64,000 nt of DNA from Candidatus Rifleibacteriota bacterium (GTDB taxonomy: Bacteria > Muiribacteriota > Ozemobacteria > Ozemobacterales > Ozemobacteraceae), in assembly GCA_012520995.1 (NCBI GenBank), contig JAAYNI010000067.1:1-64000 (forward strand), written 5' to 3'. The number at the start of each line of letters is the position of its first letter. The stretch's first letter is position 1. The notes under the pieces were generated by a model. It was not told where the DNA came from and searched no databases. It saw nothing but the letters and a program-made list of their open reading frames with translations. Both the position numbers and the translations under genes were made by a program. Positions 2,337-60,270 of the stretch are shown one piece after another.

Positions 2337-2408
2337 CAAAAGCGTCTTTCTGCTTGCAAGATCTTTGCTGATCATATAAGCTCATAGAGAATGCTGAGAG
2401 GAGGTTAT

Positions 2409-3434
2409 ATGGACATTAGCCTTATTTTAATGCCTTTGCTGGCTGTTTTGGCAGCTGTTGCTGGAATACTTTTCATATTTGCTATAGTAATGGTTTTTCA
2501 GTTTGCAAACGTTGTTATGATTTACATGCGTTCCAAAGCGGCAGACGTAAATATAAGCATGTCTGACCTTATAGGTGCCCAGCTTAGAACAGCCTTTTTG
2601 CCATACAGCGATCCGGTCGGCACTCTTGTTGATGCAACTACCCAAGCGCAAAAAGCTAGAATTAATATTTCTTTTGATACCTTGGAAACTCACATGATGT
2701 CTGGCGGAAATGTAAATGTTCTTGTCAGATCTTTGATACAGGCTTCGCAATCTGGTATTCGCCTTAGCCAGGGGCAGGCTGCTGCTCTGGATTTGGCAGG
2801 TCATAATGTTTTGCAGGCCGTTAATATGTCTATCAACCCTAAAAACATCAGAAGCATAGGCATCAAAGGCGTTGCGAAAGACGGCATAGAGCTTGAGGTG
2901 AATGCAAGTATTACTGTCAGAGCCAATATAGACTCAATGATAGGCGGTGCTGGCGAAGAAACTGTTATTGCTCGCATTAATGAGGCTGTGGAGAGTGTTA
3001 TAGGTTCAGCTGAAAAACATTCTGATATTTTGAACAGACCTGCGCTTATTGCCGAAGAAGTTTTGAGAGCTGGACTTGATGCAGGCAGCGCCTACGAGAT
3101 AATTTCAATAGATATTGCTGATATTAGTGTGCTTCGCAATATCGGTGCCATGCTTAAAAATATGCAAGCGGAAGCTGATAGATGCGTGAGTGAATCTAGA
3201 GCCGAGGGCAGAAAAGCTCTTGCGGAAGCCATAGCTCAAGAAAATAAAGCTGCTGAGCAAGAAGCTAAAGCTAAGGTTTTGGCGGCTGAAATGTATGTTC
3301 CTCTCTCTATTGCAGCCGCTTACAAAAAAGGTTCTTTGTTGGTAGATAGAGACGAGATCTCGGGCAAGCAAGAGAAGGGTCGGTATAGCTATAGACCTGC
3401 AGGGTATGCTTTCTGCGATGACTTTGATCTGTGA
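2409..3434 (+). CDS. FloA-like SPFH (flotillin-like) protein, copy 1
   Basis: 341 residues, the size of bacterial FloA (YqfA/YdfA family), a membrane scaffold of functional microdomains. An N-terminal hydrophobic segment (about residues 5-32) is followed by the SPFH domain (SITVRAN, GGAGEETV, AEKHSDIL) and an Ala/Glu/Lys-rich helical C-terminus (AEGRKALAEAIAQENKAAEQ) that in this family drives oligomerisation. The start at 2409 follows GAGAGGAGG; the in-frame ATG at 2391 lies before that site. A second paralogue starts at 3628. The last ~230 bp are nearly identical at DNA level to that copy, while the N-terminal halves have diverged. A hairpin with a T run follows. Confidence 0.9.
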   Translation: MDISLILMPLLAVLAAVAGILFIFAIVMVFQFANVVMIYMRSKAADVNISMSDLIGAQLRTAFLPYSDPVGTLVDATTQAQKARINISFDTLETHMMSGGNVNVLVRSLIQASQSGIRLSQGQAAALDLAGHNVLQAVNMSINPKNIRSIGIKGVAKDGIELEVNASITVRANIDSMIGGAGEETVIARINEAVESVIGSAEKHSDILNRPALIAEEVLRAGLDAGSAYEIISIDIADISVLRNIGAMLKNMQAEADRCVSESRAEGRKALAEAIAQENKAAEQEAKAKVLAAEMYVPLSIAAAYKKGSLLVDRDEISGKQEKGRYSYRPAGYAFCDDFDL

Positions 3435-3627: not shown

Positions 3628-4647
3628 ATGCTTGCTGAGCTATACGCGGCTATAGGTATTGTTTTGGGATTTCTCCTTATTATAGGGGGACTTTTCTTCT
3701 TGACTATGCTGTTGCAGTTTGCCGGCATCATTCAAATTTATATCAAATCTTGGACTACAGGCGTACGTTTAGGTTTTTTTGAACTTCTTGGAGCTAAAGT
3801 CAGAACAAGTACTCTGAACTATTATGATCCTGTTGATACCCTTGTTCAAGCTTTGACCCAGGCACGTAAAGCACATCTTAATATCTCTTTTGACGCTTTG
3901 GAGACTCATATGATGTCAGGCGGCGATGTTAACGCCATTGTCAGAGCCTTGATACAAGCATCGCAGTCAGGTATACGTCTTAGTTTTGGACAGGCTGCCG
4001 CTCTTGACTTGGCTGGACACAATGTTTTGCAGGCTGTCAATATGTCGATTAACCCTAAAAATATCAGAAGCAACAATATCAGAGGAGTTTCAAAAGACGG
4101 CATAGAGCTTGAGGTTTTTGCCAGTATTACTGTCAGAGCCAATATGGATGCAATGATCGGCGGAGCGGGAGAAGAAACTGTTGTGGCTCGTATCAATGAA
4201 GCGGCTGTCAGTATCATAGGCTCAGCAGAAAGACATTCGGATATTTTGAACAGGCCAGCAACTATTTCAGAAGAAATTTTGAAAGCGGGCTTAGATGCTG
4301 GCACTTTCTATGAAATTATTTCAGTTGATATTGCCGATGTTAACGTAATGCGTAACATAGGCGCTATTCTAAAAAATATGCAGGCTGAGGCTGACAGACG
4401 TGTAAGCGAATCTAGAGCAGAAGGCAGAAAAGCTCTTGCGGAAGCCATAGCTCAAGAAAATAAAGCTGCTGAGCAAGAAGCTAAAGCTAAGGTTTTGGCG
4501 GCTGAAATGTATGTTCCTCTCTCTATTGCGGCTGCTTACAAAAAAGGTTCTTTGCTGGTAGATAGAGCCGAGATCTCGGACAAACAAGAGAAGGGTCGGT
4601 ATAGCTACAGACCTGCGGGATATGCTTTCTGTGATGACTTTGATTGA
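3628..4647 (+). CDS. FloA-like SPFH (flotillin-like) protein, copy 2
   Basis: 339 residues with the architecture of the copy at 2409: hydrophobic N-terminus (about 5-30), SPFH domain, Ala/Glu-rich oligomerisation tail, and the same C-terminal end (GYAFCDDFD) including an unusual cysteine. The start follows CAAAGGAGGC. FloA proteins assemble at the inner membrane and help recruit signalling and secretion proteins; two paralogues may form mixed assemblies (inference). The 3' end overlaps the next small ORF by 26 bp. A tract of 107 bp (4423-4529) is identical to 3207-3313 in copy 1, while flanking codons differ, which suggests gene conversion rather than protein-level selection alone. Confidence 0.9.
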   Translation: MLAELYAAIGIVLGFLLIIGGLFFLTMLLQFAGIIQIYIKSWTTGVRLGFFELLGAKVRTSTLNYYDPVDTLVQALTQARKAHLNISFDALETHMMSGGDVNAIVRALIQASQSGIRLSFGQAAALDLAGHNVLQAVNMSINPKNIRSNNIRGVSKDGIELEVFASITVRANMDAMIGGAGEETVVARINEAAVSIIGSAERHSDILNRPATISEEILKAGLDAGTFYEIISVDIADVNVMRNIGAILKNMQAEADRRVSESRAEGRKALAEAIAQENKAAEQEAKAKVLAAEMYVPLSIAAAYKKGSLLVDRAEISDKQEKGRYSYRPAGYAFCDDFD

Positions 4648-13231: not shown

Positions 13232-14953
13232 TTGAGCATACGCGCAAAAATTATTCTGGCCTTTGTTTTTTTGGCTGCAGCTATTGCTTTTGTGGTCAGC
13301 TTTTGGGCAGCAAATACCATAGGCTTTCAAATAGACAGCTCAGACATGGGCAGGTTAGGCAATATTAAAAATGCCTTTTTAGACTCAGCTTTTAATCAGA
13401 AGCTTGAGTTGGACAGAATTAACCGGCAAATATCAGATACATTTGCAAAACTGGATATTCTCTCTTTTCCCGATGATATCCGAAAAACTATTTTTTCAGA
13501 AATACTGGACTCTTTAGAACTTGATTGTATAGCGATAACAGATAGAAAAAATACATTGTTTTCTTCTTGTGAATTTATTTTTAGTGAGCCGCCCAGCGAT
13601 TTTTCTTATCCCTTGCTTGTTCGTTTTTCCGGCAAAGAAGACTCTAACTATGTTCTGATTTCAAGCTTGCCTTTTAAAAAAAATGAAAACTTGAACCTTC
13701 TGGTTTTTCAAAAATTCAGGGCAGAGCTTCCTGGTGAAAATAACTTGTATTTTCTCTTGAAGAATGGCAAGACACGTTATGCATCAGATTTTTTATCAAT
13801 TGGCAACCAAGAGTTCTTGTCGTCGATTGACTTTGATGAGCGAACAAAACAGGTTGTTTTGAACGATTTTATTTTTAGACTTCGCTCTTATGCTTTAGAA
13901 AAAGATTTTACTCTTCTTTCCGGTTATATGGCACAAAAAGCTATAATCTCCAGCGAAAATATTTACCAGCTTTTGTTCAGATTAGCTCTTCTTCAGGTGG
14001 TCACTTTGATTGTTTTTGGATATTTTCTTGGTTCTAGTTTGCTGGCTCCTTTGAAACTTTTGAATGATACCATTGCAAGAACTTCCGATTATGAATTTGA
14101 AAAAATACCTTTGGATAAGCCTCCAATGATAAATAGCGGCTATGAAATCGAAAATACGGCAAAAGCTTTCAACGAAATGGCAGACAGGCTTACTGAGGCT
14201 AAGAAAACCTTGCTTGAAATGGAGCGAAAACGCAGTTCTGAAGAAAAACTGGTGGCTATAGGCCGTTTTTCAGGCAGCATTGCCCATGAAATCAATAATC
14301 CGCTGGGTATAATTTTGCTCTATGCACAGACCCTCAGAAAAGATTTAAGAGAAGGCAAAGAACTTGATGACGAGGATTTGAAAACAATTGAAGAAGAGGT
14401 CAAAAGATGCAAAAACATAATTGATGTCTTGCGTGTCTATACTAAGAAGAGCACTCCCGCCTTAACAGTTTATACGGCTCAAGACTTTATAAGTAAAATG
14501 AAGGAACTCATTTTAAAGGACCTTCCGCCAGAATTGCTTTGTAATTTTTCTCTTAAAGGCAAGTTTGACAATATAACTCTTAAGGCTGATTTTACCGCTT
14601 TGGCACAGGTATCTAAGAACCTTGTGGAAAATGCTGTCTATGCTTGCCTAGAGAGAAAAGAACCTAAAGTATTCGTATTATTTGAGCTTGAAGGCGATTT
14701 TTTGCGTTTTTCTTTCTCTGATAATGGCAAGGGATTTCAAGGAGAGCCTGACAAGCTTTTCGAGCCTCTGTACACCACCAGAGAAAGCGGTACCGGTTTG
14801 GGTTTATTAGTGATACAATCAATTGTGGAAGGGCATGGAGGGAAGATTTCAGCTTCAAGAGAAGAGGAGTTGACAACATTTGAACTGCTTTTCCCTATTA
14901 ACATGTATTCTGATACGCCTTCCCCTAAGCAACAAGAGGAGAATCACACTTGA
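13232..14953 (+). CDS. Transmembrane sensor histidine kinase (NtrB-like)
   Basis: 573 residues with a TTG start. TM1 at about 8-28, an extracytoplasmic sensor region to ~245, TM2 at about 246-268, a HAMP linker, then the phosphoacceptor helix with GSIAHEINNP (His352), and HATPase boxes: N (KNLVENAVYA), G1 (DNGKGF), F (LFEPLYTTRES), G2 (GTGLGLLVIQSIVEGHGGKI). The sensor region is not a family I recognise. The stop overlaps the response regulator start by 4 nt (TTGA). The two genes form a cognate two-component pair; the genes read with them encode exported and cell wall proteins, so an envelope signal is plausible (inference). Confidence 0.92.
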   Translation: MSIRAKIILAFVFLAAAIAFVVSFWAANTIGFQIDSSDMGRLGNIKNAFLDSAFNQKLELDRINRQISDTFAKLDILSFPDDIRKTIFSEILDSLELDCIAITDRKNTLFSSCEFIFSEPPSDFSYPLLVRFSGKEDSNYVLISSLPFKKNENLNLLVFQKFRAELPGENNLYFLLKNGKTRYASDFLSIGNQEFLSSIDFDERTKQVVLNDFIFRLRSYALEKDFTLLSGYMAQKAIISSENIYQLLFRLALLQVVTLIVFGYFLGSSLLAPLKLLNDTIARTSDYEFEKIPLDKPPMINSGYEIENTAKAFNEMADRLTEAKKTLLEMERKRSSEEKLVAIGRFSGSIAHEINNPLGIILLYAQTLRKDLREGKELDDEDLKTIEEEVKRCKNIIDVLRVYTKKSTPALTVYTAQDFISKMKELILKDLPPELLCNFSLKGKFDNITLKADFTALAQVSKNLVENAVYACLERKEPKVFVLFELEGDFLRFSFSDNGKGFQGEPDKLFEPLYTTRESGTGLGLLVIQSIVEGHGGKISASREEELTTFELLFPINMYSDTPSPKQQEENHT

Positions 14954-18902: not shown

Positions 18903-19077
18903 CAAGTGCTGCTTTTTCTCTAAAACTTTCCTGCCAGCCTTTCAAAATTCACAAGACAATATCTGCTGAAAAAATATGCATCGCACTAGAGTGGCGAGTG
19001 GAGCGTGGCGAGTTTTAATATCAATAAAAAGATCTCTTTTCTGAGCTTTTCCGTGTATTCTGTGTGTTCCGTGGTTT
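18903..19077 (+). repeat. Mosaic intergenic repeat (locus 2)
   Basis: CAAGTGCTGCTTTTTCTC at 18903 opens the unit, GCACTAG closes it at 18983-18989 (87 bp). Next come the 7-mer run GTGGCGA GTGGAGC GTGGCGA (18991-19011) and the 9-mer array CCGTGTATT CTGTGTGTT CCGTGGTTT (19051-19077). The AT-rich middle block is missing, so this is a shortened copy. It abuts the M48 peptidase gene. Confidence 0.75.
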
Positions 19078-19119: not shown

Positions 19120-19986
19120 ATGCAAAATTTCAACTTTAATTCTTTAAAAGAATTTGACAATCTTCGTGCCGAAAGCTTTCAACATCCTTGGGATAGACAA
19201 GCGGTTACAGCTTTGCAAAGCATTCCTGGTTTTGAGTTCTTAGTTAAAAAGCTTATGGAAATTGGTTTCGAGCAGTTTTTTCGTATGACTAATTTGGCCA
19301 GCAATATACACCTGACTGGAAAAATGTTGCCGGAAGTTCAATATTTGCTTGAAAAAGCTTGCAATATACTTTCTGTTCCTAAGCCGGATCTTTATTTGCA
19401 AACTTCTCCGCTTCCTAACGCTTATACATATGGAGATACAAATCCCTTCGTAGTTGTGACATCTGGACTTTTGGATTTGATGGAACCAGAAGAACTTTTG
19501 TGCGTTTTTGCCCATGAAGTTGGACATATCAAGTGCGGCCATGTTTTATATAAAACTATGGCAAGGCATTTTAAATTTTTGCTTGAGCTGGCTTCGCAGG
19601 CTACATTAGGCTTTTCTTCATTGATAAGCGGCGGGTTGCAGGTTGCGATGTTCGATTGGGAACGCAAATCTGAACTTTCAGCTGACAGAGCGGCTTTGAT
19701 TGCTGTACAAAGCCAGAGCGTAGTCAACAGAATGTATATGAAGTTGGCTGGAGCTACCTCGAAATATGCTTCAAAACTTGATGAAAAAGAGTTCTTTGCT
19801 CAAATAAGAAATTATGAGGATGCGACTGACGAGTCATTTCTGAATAAAGCTTTTATCTCGTTGGTAACTATCCAGATGTCACATCCCTTTGTCATAGTTA
19901 GAGCCAAACATTTAGATAATTGGATAACTTCTGGTGAATTTACAAAACTGACTGATATACCTGTTGAAGAAGTGCGGGCATTTTAG
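19120..19986 (+). CDS. M48-family zinc metallopeptidase
   Basis: 288 residues. The zinc site HEVGHIKCGH (HExxH) and the third-ligand segment ERKSELSADRA are clear, so catalysis is probably intact. There is no N-terminal signal or obvious membrane helix bundle as in HtpX, so it is likely cytoplasmic or peripheral. I prefer the ATG at 19120 (MQNFNFNSLKEF) with GGAGACGGGG upstream; in-frame GTG 19090 and ATG 19105 are alternatives, but the stretch there derives from the repeat. The stop TAG (19984-19986) is also the start of the next repeat element. Confidence 0.88.
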   Translation: MQNFNFNSLKEFDNLRAESFQHPWDRQAVTALQSIPGFEFLVKKLMEIGFEQFFRMTNLASNIHLTGKMLPEVQYLLEKACNILSVPKPDLYLQTSPLPNAYTYGDTNPFVVVTSGLLDLMEPEELLCVFAHEVGHIKCGHVLYKTMARHFKFLLELASQATLGFSSLISGGLQVAMFDWERKSELSADRAALIAVQSQSVVNRMYMKLAGATSKYASKLDEKEFFAQIRNYEDATDESFLNKAFISLVTIQMSHPFVIVRAKHLDNWITSGEFTKLTDIPVEEVRAF

Positions 19987-20312
19987 TGCTGTGTTGCAGC
20001 TGAAAGTTACCTATTTAATGCTAAGCAAGTCAACAAACTCTTTATGCGTATCTGATGCAACTACCGCACTAGAGGGGGGCGTAGGGAGTAGGGGGTAGTA
20101 AAATTGTTCAGGCTCAATTGCTAAAACTAATAATTGTTTTTAGATGTTAATAAATGTGCGTTGTTTTTGTAGTTTCTGTCCCTCGTGTCACTCACCACTC
20201 GCCATTCATCATGGTTCTTAGGCTATTCCCCACACCCTAACCCCTACTCCCTTTGAGTTTTCGCCACTCGTCACTCGTGTTAATTGTCCTCTCTGTCCAC
20301 TGCCCATCGAAC
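19983..20312 (+). repeat. Mosaic intergenic repeat (locus 3)
   Basis: The 90-bp unit runs from TTAGTGCTG (19983) to CCGCACTAG (20072). A 7-mer run follows (GTAGGGA GTAGGGG GTAGTAA), then the AT-rich block with GGCTCAATTGCTAAAACT and TTTTAGATGTTAATAAAT, then four more 7-mer tracts: CACTCAC CACTCGC CATTCAT near 20200, CCCTAAC CCCTACT CCCTTTG near 20235, CACTCGT CACTCGT near 20265, and GTCCACT GCCCATC GAACACT near 20297. No coding sequence in this 350-bp gap. Confidence 0.75.
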
Positions 20313-20339
20313 ACTGTTTTTAATAGTTAGGAGAATAAA

Positions 20340-31247: not shown

Positions 31248-32622
31248 TGCTCAGATGTTGGCTCAACTTTGTAATGGAGAGCTTCTTAATGATAACGGCA
31301 GAACTTTTAAGACTCTTTCCATAGACAGCAGGCGTATTGACAGTGCTTGTCTTTTTGTCGCTTTAAAAGGTGAAAACCATGACGCTCACGATTTTGTGGT
31401 TTCAGCGATTGAAAAGGGAGCGGCGGGTGTTTTGATTTCCGAGATTCGCCCTGAATATGACTTGCATTCAAGCTGTTTCATAAAATGTGCGGATACTCTC
31501 GCTTCTTTACAGTTTTTGGCCAAAAATCTTAGAGCTGTGACAAAGTCCCGCTTTATTGGTGTTACGGGCAGTAACGGTAAAACAACAGTCCGCTCTATGA
31601 TTGCTCATTTGCTTTCAGAGAAATATTCTTGTTACTCGACAGAAGGAAATTTGAACAATCATATAGGCTTGCCCCTGACTATTGCTAATTCACCTGGAGA
31701 TGAAGATTTCACGGTTTTGGAAATGGGTATGAACAATGAAGGGGAGATAAGATTCTTGGCTGACATAGCAAAGCCAGATATAGCAGTTATAACCAATGTC
31801 GGTACTGCTCACATTGGAAATTTTGAATCGGCAGAAGGCATAGCAGAAGCTAAAGCCGAGATACTTGAAGGTCTGAGACCTGGCGGTTTTGCAATATTGC
31901 CTGGAGATACGCCAATGAAACGTTTTTTTCATCTTCCAGAAGGGGTTAAGGCAATATATTTCGGAACTTCTCCCGATAATAACGCTTTGATAGAAAATAT
32001 CCAAACCGAGTCTTATTCATCGACCTTTGATTTGACTATAGACAAACAGAAGATGAAGTTTCAGATAAATATTCCAGGGACTCACAATGTTTATAATGCA
32101 GCAGCAGCTTTAGCTCTCTGTCATAATGTGGGATTATCCTTTGATTATCTTGCTGAAAGAATTAAGAGTTTTGTGCCTGTGGGAGCTCGTCTTGAGATTC
32201 TGGAACGTGACGGAGTCCGTATTTTATTGGACTGTTACAACGCAAATCCCGATTCTATGCGAGAAGCTCTGACATATTTGGCTTCTTGCAAATCGCCGAA
32301 AATAGCGGTTCTTGGTGAGATGCGCGAACTTGGCTCCATGTCGGTTCACTTGCATAAAAAAATAGGCGCTTATGCGGCAGAATGTGAGCTGGATTGGCTT
32401 ATTTGCTTAGGAAAAGACGCTGAATATATAGCTTCTCAAGCTATAGAATGCGGTTTTTCTCCAGAGCGAGCAATATCGTTAAATTCTTTCGACAAAGCAG
32501 CCGATCTCTTAAGAGAGCTTCTGAAAGAAGGCGCTGTTGTCTTGTTTAAAGCAAGTCGGGGAATGCGTTTTGAAAAAATAGTGCAAAAGCTCTGGTCAGA
32601 CGTTGGCAAAGACCTGCACTGA
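31234..32622 (+). CDS. murF: UDP-MurNAc-tripeptide-D-Ala-D-Ala ligase
   Basis: 462 residues. N-terminal MurF domain (SIDSRRIDSACLFVALKGE), ATP loop GVTGSNGKTTVRSM, EMGMNNEGEI, TNVGTAHIGNF, and the C-terminal LDCYNANPDSMREAL and VLGEMRELG. Completes the UDP-MurNAc-pentapeptide that MraY uses. Fourteen-nt overlap with murE. A mosaic repeat begins one base after its TGA, separating it from mraY by 355 bp. Confidence 0.96.
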   Translation: MIEINAQMLAQLCNGELLNDNGRTFKTLSIDSRRIDSACLFVALKGENHDAHDFVVSAIEKGAAGVLISEIRPEYDLHSSCFIKCADTLASLQFLAKNLRAVTKSRFIGVTGSNGKTTVRSMIAHLLSEKYSCYSTEGNLNNHIGLPLTIANSPGDEDFTVLEMGMNNEGEIRFLADIAKPDIAVITNVGTAHIGNFESAEGIAEAKAEILEGLRPGGFAILPGDTPMKRFFHLPEGVKAIYFGTSPDNNALIENIQTESYSSTFDLTIDKQKMKFQINIPGTHNVYNAAAALALCHNVGLSFDYLAERIKSFVPVGARLEILERDGVRILLDCYNANPDSMREALTYLASCKSPKIAVLGEMRELGSMSVHLHKKIGAYAAECELDWLICLGKDAEYIASQAIECGFSPERAISLNSFDKAADLLRELLKEGAVVLFKASRGMRFEKIVQKLWSDVGKDLH

Positions 32623-32940
32623 CTAGTGCGGCCTTTTCTCTAAGAGTTGCCTGTAAAATCTTATCTTGCTGTTTAACAGCTTAGTCTATTTCAGATGCTA
32701 CTGTCCCACTAGTTAGTGGGTAGTGGGTGGTGGTAGTGAAATTCTTTAGGCTCAATTGCTGAAAATTGGCAATTGCTTGAAAATCTAGATAAATAACTCG
32801 TTTGAAGTAAGACGCAGACAAAAATTATAGAATATAATTTTTCAAAAAGCATTGGTTCTTCATCTGTGTAAATCTGTGTAATCTGTGGATAATATGTAGT
32901 TTGGAATTTTTTCGTGTATTCCGTGTGTTCTGTGGTTCCA
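32623..32940 (+). repeat. Mosaic intergenic repeat (locus 6)
   Basis: 90-bp unit CTAGTGCGGC (32623) to CCCACTAG (32712); 7-mer run AGTGGGT AGTGGGT GGTGGTA; AT-rich block with GGCTCAATTGCTGAAAAT; GAAGTAAGACGCAGA as in locus 1; a run ATCTGTGTAA ATCTGTGTA ATCTGTGGA; and the 9-mer array TTCGTGTATTCCGTGTGTTC then TGTGGTT. It separates murF from mraY inside the wall cluster. No gene in the gap. Confidence 0.75.
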
Positions 32941-32977
32941 AAAATGGTATTTCAATTCAGGCTTGGAGGCTTAAGAC

Positions 32978-34072: not shown

Positions 34073-34116
34073 AACAAACAGGGATTAGTGGATAGAAAAA
34101 TAATCCGAAGATTACG

Positions 34117-34153
34117 CAGACGGGATTTTAAGCACAGCTTAAAATCCCGTCTG
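34117..34153 (+). terminator. 17-bp perfect hairpin after mraY
   Basis: CAGACGGGATTTTAAGC, loop ACA, then the perfect complement to 34153; GTTTTTG lies ~15 nt later. It sits in a short repeat remnant: AATCCGAAGATTACGCAGAC before it and ACTAGTGCCCACT near 34184. It probably stops transcription between convergent genes, although the T run is not adjacent. Confidence 0.55.
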
Positions 34154-34203
34154 TGGTTAAAGGGTTTTTGCTTCTAAAACAAATACTAGTGCCCACTGTT
34201 AAT

Positions 34204-58195: not shown

Positions 58196-59129
58196 CGGAC
58201 TGCTTGTTGTAGACAAGCCAAAAGGCTGGACTTCTCATGATGTGATTGCGAAGATCCGAAGAAAGTTTAAGGTCAAATGTGGCCATTCGGGAACATTGGA
58301 TCCTATGGCAACAGGTGTTTTGCTGGTTTTTACCGAGAAGGCTCTGAAGCTTTTAAGTCTTATTGAGCCTGAAGAAATGGATAAAACCTACAGTTTTGTA
58401 GTCACTTTGGGTGCAACTACCGACACTTATGATGCTGAGGGCACAGTAGTCAGCCGTTTTGAAGGCGAGATTGATTTCACTCCTGAAGAACTTGAAAAAG
58501 CCGTTAAGGCTTTCACAGGAACTATTAAACAGACACCGCCAGATTTTTCGGCAGTCAAAATAAAAGGTCAGCCTGCTTACAAGCTTGCCAGAAAAGGCAA
58601 AGAAGTAACAATACCTCCCAGAGAAGTGCATGTGGAGTCTTTGGAATGCTTAGAAGATTTTGTCGAGAACGGAGAACGCAAGCTTCGTATGCGAGTCTCC
58701 TGTTCAAGGGGGACTTATATAAGATCCTTGGCTCATGATTTAGCAGCAAATCTGGGATTTGGCGGGCATCTCTCTTTTCTTAGACGCGAGAGGGTGGGGC
58801 GCTGGTCAGAAGATATGGCTATAAGCATGGAAATCTTGGAAAACACTGAAAACTTTGCTTTAACACCTTCTTTTATACAAGATAAGGAGCTTACTGGTTT
58901 TCCTAAACTTATAGTAACAGAGGATGGTGAGAGAAATGTTTCAAATGGAAGAAAAATTTTCTTATCCGATATTCTTTCTGTGAAACCAGGTGAAAAAGAT
59001 TCTCCTTATACAGATGTTCTCAGTAAAGACGGAGACCTTATTGCGGTTTATGAGATTACTTCGGAGTCTTCTTCTGACGGAACTTTGTCGTGTTTTAAAC
59101 CTGTAAAGGTGTTTAATGCTGGCAACTAA
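58170..59129 (+). CDS. truB: tRNA pseudouridine55 synthase
   Basis: 319 residues. LLVVDKPKGWTSHDV, the catalytic GHSGTLDPMATGVLLV with the conserved Asp, TYSFVVTLGATTDTYDAEG, QTPPDFSAVKIKGQPAYKLA and SCSRGTYIRSLAHDLA. The C-terminal part is a PUA-like domain. Overlaps nrnA by 26 nt and ribF by 14 nt, so translation is coupled. Confidence 0.96.
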   Translation: MKVTQGEVSGLLVVDKPKGWTSHDVIAKIRRKFKVKCGHSGTLDPMATGVLLVFTEKALKLLSLIEPEEMDKTYSFVVTLGATTDTYDAEGTVVSRFEGEIDFTPEELEKAVKAFTGTIKQTPPDFSAVKIKGQPAYKLARKGKEVTIPPREVHVESLECLEDFVENGERKLRMRVSCSRGTYIRSLAHDLAANLGFGGHLSFLRRERVGRWSEDMAISMEILENTENFALTPSFIQDKELTGFPKLIVTEDGERNVSNGRKIFLSDILSVKPGEKDSPYTDVLSKDGDLIAVYEITSESSSDGTLSCFKPVKVFNAGN

Positions 59130-60081
59130 CTGCGAAATACACGAACTTTGTGCTTTGCCTGAACCTTTAATGCCAGCAGTTTATGCTATTGGAGTTTTTG
59201 ACGGAGTACATATAGGCCATAAGGAATTGATTCGCCGTATGGCGGAATATGCTCAGGACAACTCTTTTGTGCCAGGAGTTTTTACTTATTCGAATTCGCC
59301 GCGAGAAATGCTTTCTCCTGAGACCTTTCCTGGCTATATAACTGATTTTTCTGAAAAGTTGAGGTTGCTTGAAGAAGCTGGTGCAAAAAGAATAGTATAC
59401 AGAACCTTTGATAGAGATTTTGCTTCCAAAAGCGCTGAATATTTTATACAGGAAGTACTTCTCAAAAAACTTGCTGCTAAAGCTGTTTTTGTGGGTTTTA
59501 ACTTTAGATTTGGCTCAGGCAGAACCAAAGGAGCGGAATATCTTTCAGAAGCCCTCAAAATAGCAGGTTGTGAATGTTTTATTATGGAACCCTATGAGTA
59601 TAGAGAAATGCAGATTTCTTCTACATTAATTCGCAGAAAGATTCATAGAGGCGATTTTCCATGCGTTGAGTTTATGCTCGGACGTAAAATTAGCTTTGAG
59701 GGCAAAGTTATAAGCGGCAATCGTATTGCGAGACGTTTGGGTTATCCCACCGCCAACATTTCAGTTGAAGATTCACATCTTGTATTGCCTGCCAACGGTG
59801 TTTATTCTGCAGTTGCAGAAGTTGCCGGGAAAAAATATGCGTCTGCAGCTAATCTGGGCATGCGACCTACTTTTAACGGTAAAGTTAAACTTCTTGAGGT
59901 TCACCTCTTTGACTTTTCCGGAGACTTATACGGAAAAGTCATCAAAGTCAGATTTATCAATAAAATACGTGACGAGGTTAAATTTCCATCCGAAGAAGCT
60001 TTAAAAGAACAGCTTTTCCAAGATGAAGAGAACATCCGACAAATGCTTGCAACGCCTCTTCTGCCTCATTGCCAAGGCTAG
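59116..60081 (+). CDS. ribF: Bifunctional riboflavin kinase / FAD synthetase
   Basis: 321 residues. FAD synthetase domain first (AIGVFDGVHIGHKELIR, FVGFNFRFGSGRTKGAEYL, ISSTLIRRKIHRGD), riboflavin kinase domain second (GNRIARRLGYPTANISVE, NLGMRPTFNG, EVHLFDFSGDLYG). Makes FMN and FAD. Last gene of the operon in its usual position after truB. Its TAG stop (60079-60081) is part of the left end of a mosaic repeat. Confidence 0.96.
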   Translation: MLATNCEIHELCALPEPLMPAVYAIGVFDGVHIGHKELIRRMAEYAQDNSFVPGVFTYSNSPREMLSPETFPGYITDFSEKLRLLEEAGAKRIVYRTFDRDFASKSAEYFIQEVLLKKLAAKAVFVGFNFRFGSGRTKGAEYLSEALKIAGCECFIMEPYEYREMQISSTLIRRKIHRGDFPCVEFMLGRKISFEGKVISGNRIARRLGYPTANISVEDSHLVLPANGVYSAVAEVAGKKYASAANLGMRPTFNGKVKLLEVHLFDFSGDLYGKVIKVRFINKIRDEVKFPSEEALKEQLFQDEENIRQMLATPLLPHCQG

Positions 60082-60270
60082 TGCTTTGTTGCAGCCAATA
60101 CTTCTCTATTCAATGACAAGCAAGACAACAAATTATTCATGGTTATTTGATGCAACAATCGCACTAGAGGGAGTAGGGCGTAGGGGGTAGAGGGTAGTCA
60201 AATACTTTTCAACTCAATTTTTGGACAGACAACTGCTTTAAGATATTAAAAGTTGTTTACATAATAAAAA
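60078..60270 (+). repeat. Mosaic intergenic repeat (locus 10)
   Basis: The clearest 90-bp unit: CTAGTGCTTTGTTGCA at 60078-60093 is nearly the reverse complement of TGCAACAATCGCACTAG at 60151-60167. Then the 7-mer run GTAGGGC GTAGGGG GTAGAGG GTAGTCA, and the AT-rich block (CAACTCAATTTTTGGACAG, ACTGCTTTAAGAT, AAAAGTTGTTTAC). Confidence 0.78.

Follow-up and report, generated by a model that had tools for sequence, protein, structure and literature searches.

The unit and its copies in the window

The window, the whole 64,000-nt stretch of DNA analysed, carries a 90-bp unit with CTAG-bounded inverted ends (CTAGTGC...GCACTAG) at 60078–60167 on the forward strand, 3′ of ribF. It was recognised from its sequence, its 43 genomic matches and the pairing of its ends. 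The ribF open reading frame (59116–60081), in which the RibF domains are complete, stops at the TAG (60079–60081, forward strand) of the unit's left CTAG. The ends CTAGTGCTTTGTTGCA and TGCAACAATCGCACTAG pair over 16 of 17 bp (z = -2.4 vs shuffles), in agreement with the roughly 16 bp proposed in an earlier note on this DNA. Downstream, a composite element continues on the same strand with a degenerate 7-bp array of GTAGGGC type (60168–60200), the same block as follows most copies, and with a block common to composite copies, TTTTCAACTCAATT...ACTGCTTTAAGATATTA (60201–60255), found by comparing their sequences.

Units of exactly 90 bp also lie at 19983–20072 and 32623–32712, with coordinates and lengths as previously given. 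The ends CTAGTGC and GCACTAG, which the earlier note ascribed to the unit in general, are both present at 60078–60167; the copy at 19983 starts TTAGTGC, and that at 32623–32712, the most diverged of the three, ends in CCCACTAG. The copy at 19983 (forward strand, left end TTAG) is 3′ of an M48 peptidase gene whose stop codon is the TAG at 19984–19986. Its composite continuation of 7-bp arrays and common blocks occupies 20073–20332 (forward strand), and its far end is unrecognisable. The diverged copy (forward strand) begins with CTAG directly after the murF TGA (32620–32622), the abutment previously described. Two further copies had been counted and were found on the forward strand. One, 3′ of coaE at ~990–1077 (CTAGTGCTGCTTTTTCAC...), is older and has lost its right CTAG; TAG 991–993 is the coaE stop. 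The other, at 18904–18989, has a different interior (AAGTGCTGCTTTTTCTC...TCGCACTAG) and is not at a stop. As had been proposed, coaE, the M48 gene and ribF all terminate at the left-end TAG. The host genes are those named in the earlier note (CoaE, M48 peptidase, MurF, RibF).

The 7-mer CTAGTGC alone occurs 9 times in the window against 5.4 expected, which is not significant. The full unit, unlike this 7-mer, is present far beyond chance. CTAG itself is depleted about two-fold across the window (57 found vs 114 expected from trinucleotides). Elsewhere in the window, 300-bp tandem stretches at 2610–2909 and 3826–4125 are 76% alike and lie inside neighbouring ORFs; they are probably a flotillin-like gene duplication, the first ORF (2391–3434) being FloA-like.

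Ends, modules and genomic distribution

The source genome is 2.84 Mb in 101 contigs and 96% complete. It yields 43 BLAST matches to the unit, the best paralogue being 95% identical over 121 bp; no match was obtained at E ≤ 1e-3 in 36 relatives. The end motif is found at 75 sites vs 0 for the reversed motif, and the left-end motif with at most two mismatches at 346 sites vs 105 for the reversed control. Stretches fetched around the BLAST matches, and therefore element-centred, contain 87 left ends; the 90-mer's right end occurs 36 times in them, and there are 27 far ends of two types, FE and FE2, with another count giving 21 far ends.

Most complete 90-mers are 87–92 bp long, with CTAG or a one-base variant on either side and terminal inverted repeats CTAGTGCTTTGTTGCA / CTAGTGCGATTGTTGCA. 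The end motifs are TGCTKTGTTGCA (left), TAGACTGTTGCA (far) and TGCGATTGTTGCA (right end of the 90-mer). The spacing of the two 90-mer ends differs by one base, which is unusual for classic terminal inverted repeats. Two copies stand alone, with CTAG at either end and neighbouring sequence that is unrelated: one at 86122–86213 of contig C27, between two convergent ORFs, and one at 13339–13429 of C89, identical over 90 bp to a copy at C56:46052.

More often, the right end is followed by a degenerate 7-bp array, with common blocks beyond it. The 90-mer is in this way also the left module of larger elements of ~250–350 bp with a matching far end. Recognisable far ends read CTAGTAGACTGTTGCAGCTAAAAGTTCGTTATC, or a variant of it, in the opposite orientation, and the elements that have one are mostly 253–346 bp; the left and far ends of the larger form (LE and FE) are identical at 21 of 26 bases. 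Many composites have no recognisable far end, their interiors are mosaic, and some copies share a left end and differ entirely inside. The family is one set of ends with a mosaic of interiors. All forms are short (90–350 bp) and have no transposase gene of their own, and complete copies are intergenic.

Intergenic mosaic sequence is seen in the window at 60168–60200, 20073–20332, 1078–1410 and 34100–34165, and at many loci outside it. Its modules are degenerate 7-bp arrays (GTAGGGC, GAGTGGC, CTGTCCA), ATCTGTGTAATCTGTGGATA, TTCGTGTATTCCGTGTGTTCTGTGGTT and a hairpin, GATTTTAAGCTATGCTTAAAATC. In the fetched stretches, roughly half of all non-coding sequence falls at most 420 bp inside an element end.

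Probable insertion at CTAG and the position at stop codons

The 90-bp unit is best read as a family of non-autonomous, MITE-like mobile elements that insert at CTAG, and as the left module of their ~250–350-bp relatives; we give this reading a probability of roughly 0.83. Copies are dispersed through the genome and their boundaries are sharp. Twenty-one far-end pairs and 17 left-end pairs are at least 97% identical inside, their outer 40 bases are unrelated, and the break falls at CTAG; flank identity is ~12–55% outside copy pairs that are 97–100% identical inside. Nine or more contigs have an end within near-identical copies, a pattern to be expected if the assembly broke at recent copies.

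CTAG precedes 51 of 70 left ends and 19 of 20 far ends. Adjacent elements have a single CTAG in common, as insertion of one element into the flanking CTAG of another would produce. These boundaries and shared sites support CTAG as the preferred target, as suggested before. CTAG flanks both sides in 10 of 13 complete larger elements, in which target and element end, both being CTAG, are inseparable, and duplications of 2 bp (TA) and 4 bp (CTAG) look the same in these flanks. A search for paralogous empty sites within the source genome returned trivial self-matches only. A putative transposase acting in trans would recognise the end motif and insert the element at CTAG, probably with duplication of the CTAG.

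An insertion is seen between murF and mraY. The gap is 355 bp here (32623–32977), running from the CTAGTGC directly after the TGA, vs 4–105 bp in 18 relatives of the same family but other genera, for which gaps were extrapolated from match starts. A gap that is short in relatives and long here means presence or absence of an inserted element, not a conserved RNA. The MurF C-terminus ends ..LH* in 19 of 19 family relatives examined and is unchanged here.

The elements are concentrated at stop codons. For 52 of 87 left ends, the stop of an ORF of 80 or more codons is no more than 12 bases away, and 35 of them supply that stop with the TAG of the element itself. In the element-centred sequence, 30 of 44 CTAG stops have an element end, compared with 25 of 269 stops of other kinds. 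The window was not selected for its elements, and both of its ORFs ending in CTAG carry an element. Coding CTAG is avoided: three coding sites are occupied by an element, while 257 of the 326 unoccupied sites in the fetched stretches are coding. Among non-coding CTAG sites, those at or within ~10 bases of a stop make up 43 of 84 occupied sites (51%) vs 20 of 69 unoccupied sites (29%; odds ratio 2.6, p = 0.008). Site and stop counts are estimates, since they come from element-centred sequence and mechanical ORF calls.

The target itself offers an explanation. Because CTAG contains TAG, a gene ending nnC-TAG, or a pair of convergent genes meeting at CTAG, would take an insertion without change to the protein. 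Insertions inside genes would be lost by selection, which presumably accounts for the position at gene ends. A large fraction of the CTAG sites outside coding sequence are stops at which an insertion does no harm, and stops are favoured for this reason. Target choice together with loss of harmful insertions explains most, though not all, of the gene-end pattern; a modest residual excess at stops could come from selection against promoter insertions. Alternatively, the element may actively seek gene ends, for example through a transposase linked to termination of translation or transcription, in which case the excess at stops would be due to targeting, and TAGs brought by the element would now be the usual context of CTAG stops in the host; we consider this improbable. 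The target tetranucleotide includes a stop codon and is underrepresented in the genome, and insertions land where proteins stay intact; in this way a compact genome can be filled with a mobile element at little apparent cost. The recurring gene-end repeat of this genome is accounted for by the element family.

Candidate transposases, other readings and known systems

A parent was sought with PF01609, PF13358, PF01797, PF13340 and the protein of locus L031, and one IS with unmatched ends was found. This single 857-bp IS (L031 1161–2018, contig C93 of the source genome, G000) encodes DUF4096 and DDE_Tnp_1 domains, is flanked by TTAG and CTAG, and carries a terminal inverted repeat of 17/18 bp, TAGGGTCTGTTGAACATT. 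A narrower form of the MITE reading is that the elements are mobilised by an IS5-family, IS427-like transposase such as this one. Its domains, repeat and flanks are suitable, and MITEPsy1 is a precedent for a MITE with a CTAG/YTAA target (PMC3189936). Its end GGTCTGTTG also resembles a palindrome, TGGTCTGTTGCAC, of genome G028, from another family of the same phylum, at 12 of 19 positions (shuffle P 0.004). Against it, the match to element ends of its own genome is weak (10/19, P ~0.04, one-base offset), the IS has one copy only, and no homologue was found in G028. No transposase with matching ends, as the earlier note proposed to search for, was found; the sole DUF4096/DDE_Tnp_1 IS of the source genome matches weakly, and an IS5-family parent is a reasonable but tentative guess.

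Genome G028 carries 110-bp near-palindromes, CTAGTGGTCTGTTGCACTT (also CTAGTGGTCTGTTGCACTTAATT)...ACAGACCACTAG, with CTAG on both sides. They resemble the present family in an end, CTAGTGGTCTGTTGCA, close to CTAGTAGACTGTTGCA, in their CTAG flanks and in adjacent copies that share a CTAG; they differ in being near-perfect palindromes with a central hairpin and without 7-bp arrays. That this arrangement of ends recurs in a second genome speaks for a transposon family and not for a local oddity. The G028 palindrome had no match in plasmid records.

A conserved structured RNA or a 3′-end/terminator module, kept at gene ends for its fold, is very unlikely. The unit's ends can pair, with z -2.4 in the best copy, and many copies lie directly 3′ of stops. 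However, other copies fold at best slightly better than chance (z -1.4 and -0.4), and the stem is without covariation: one pair has double changes vs 1.5 in shuffles, and the covariation score is no better than that of shuffles. An Rfam scan returned tRNAs only and no family for the unit. One copy separates murF from mraY, a position at which termination would do harm. The unit is also absent from relatives. The earlier note had set a mobile unit against a structured RNA on whether relatives keep the same 90 bp with covariation; they do not carry it at murF–mraY, and the answer favours mobility.

The same note had allowed either a MITE or a REP-type unit. The MITE part is upheld by the dispersed copies, the murF–mraY insertion and the shared CTAGs; a REP/BIME-type palindrome spread by a Y1 (RAYT) transposase has very little probability. 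GTAG REPs do lie near gene 3′ ends, tandem and convergent, and their termini often give TAG stops (PMC3733652). They are 20–40-bp hairpins tied to Y1 transposases (PMC3733652), with GTAG on one side, REP/RAYT hairpins in general having a GTAG or CGTC tag, whereas the present elements are 90–350 bp with bipartite ends and CTAG on both sides, so that neither length nor ends fit. The Y1/RAYT transposase that had been proposed as a search target was not found: PF01797 (Y1_Tnp) had no match in the 96% complete genome, and control genomes were positive. A REP/RAYT origin is unsupported for this reason.

Integron-like attC sites, at which cassettes recombine 3′ of a stop codon, are comparable in size, imperfect inverted ends and place directly after genes, but the ends CTAGTGC/GCACTAG are not attC RYYYAAC/GTTRRRY and the copies are genome-wide, some between convergent genes, and not arrayed as attC, which makes this reading extremely improbable. 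In viral contigs, the three end motifs gave matches without a convincing inverted partner, these being one recurrent unrelated viral sequence and chance matches.

The closest precedents are MITEPsy1, for the CTAG target, and GTAG REPs, for repeat-supplied TAG stops. MITEPsy1, a 100-bp MITE of Pseudomonas syringae, has CTAG or YTAA as its insertion site and duplicates 4 bp there (PMC3189936). It is likewise non-autonomous, with inverted ends and a CTAG target, and differs in its ends (GGAAGGTCTGAAAAAGCC), its demonstrated duplication, its likely parent ISPsy2 and its six copies (PMC3189936), compared with more than 40 copies and mosaic larger forms here. Correia/NEMIS, RUP and ERIC are short intergenic MITEs with TA termini, some in long and short forms; their end sequences are different, and RUP is tied to IS630-Spn1 (PMC2229807). 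An IS630/Tc1 transposase of the RUP/Correia type was sought with PF13358 (DDE_3), which had no match in the source genome or in G028. The sequence family appears new to the literature searched, and its combined features are precedented part by part. A phylum with only 40 genomes in the compared set thereby gains a MITE family. At a further locus of G028 (L098 1059–1273), two different CTAG-bounded palindromes abut through one CTAG, the second having ends CTAGTGGTCTGTAACATAAGTTC.
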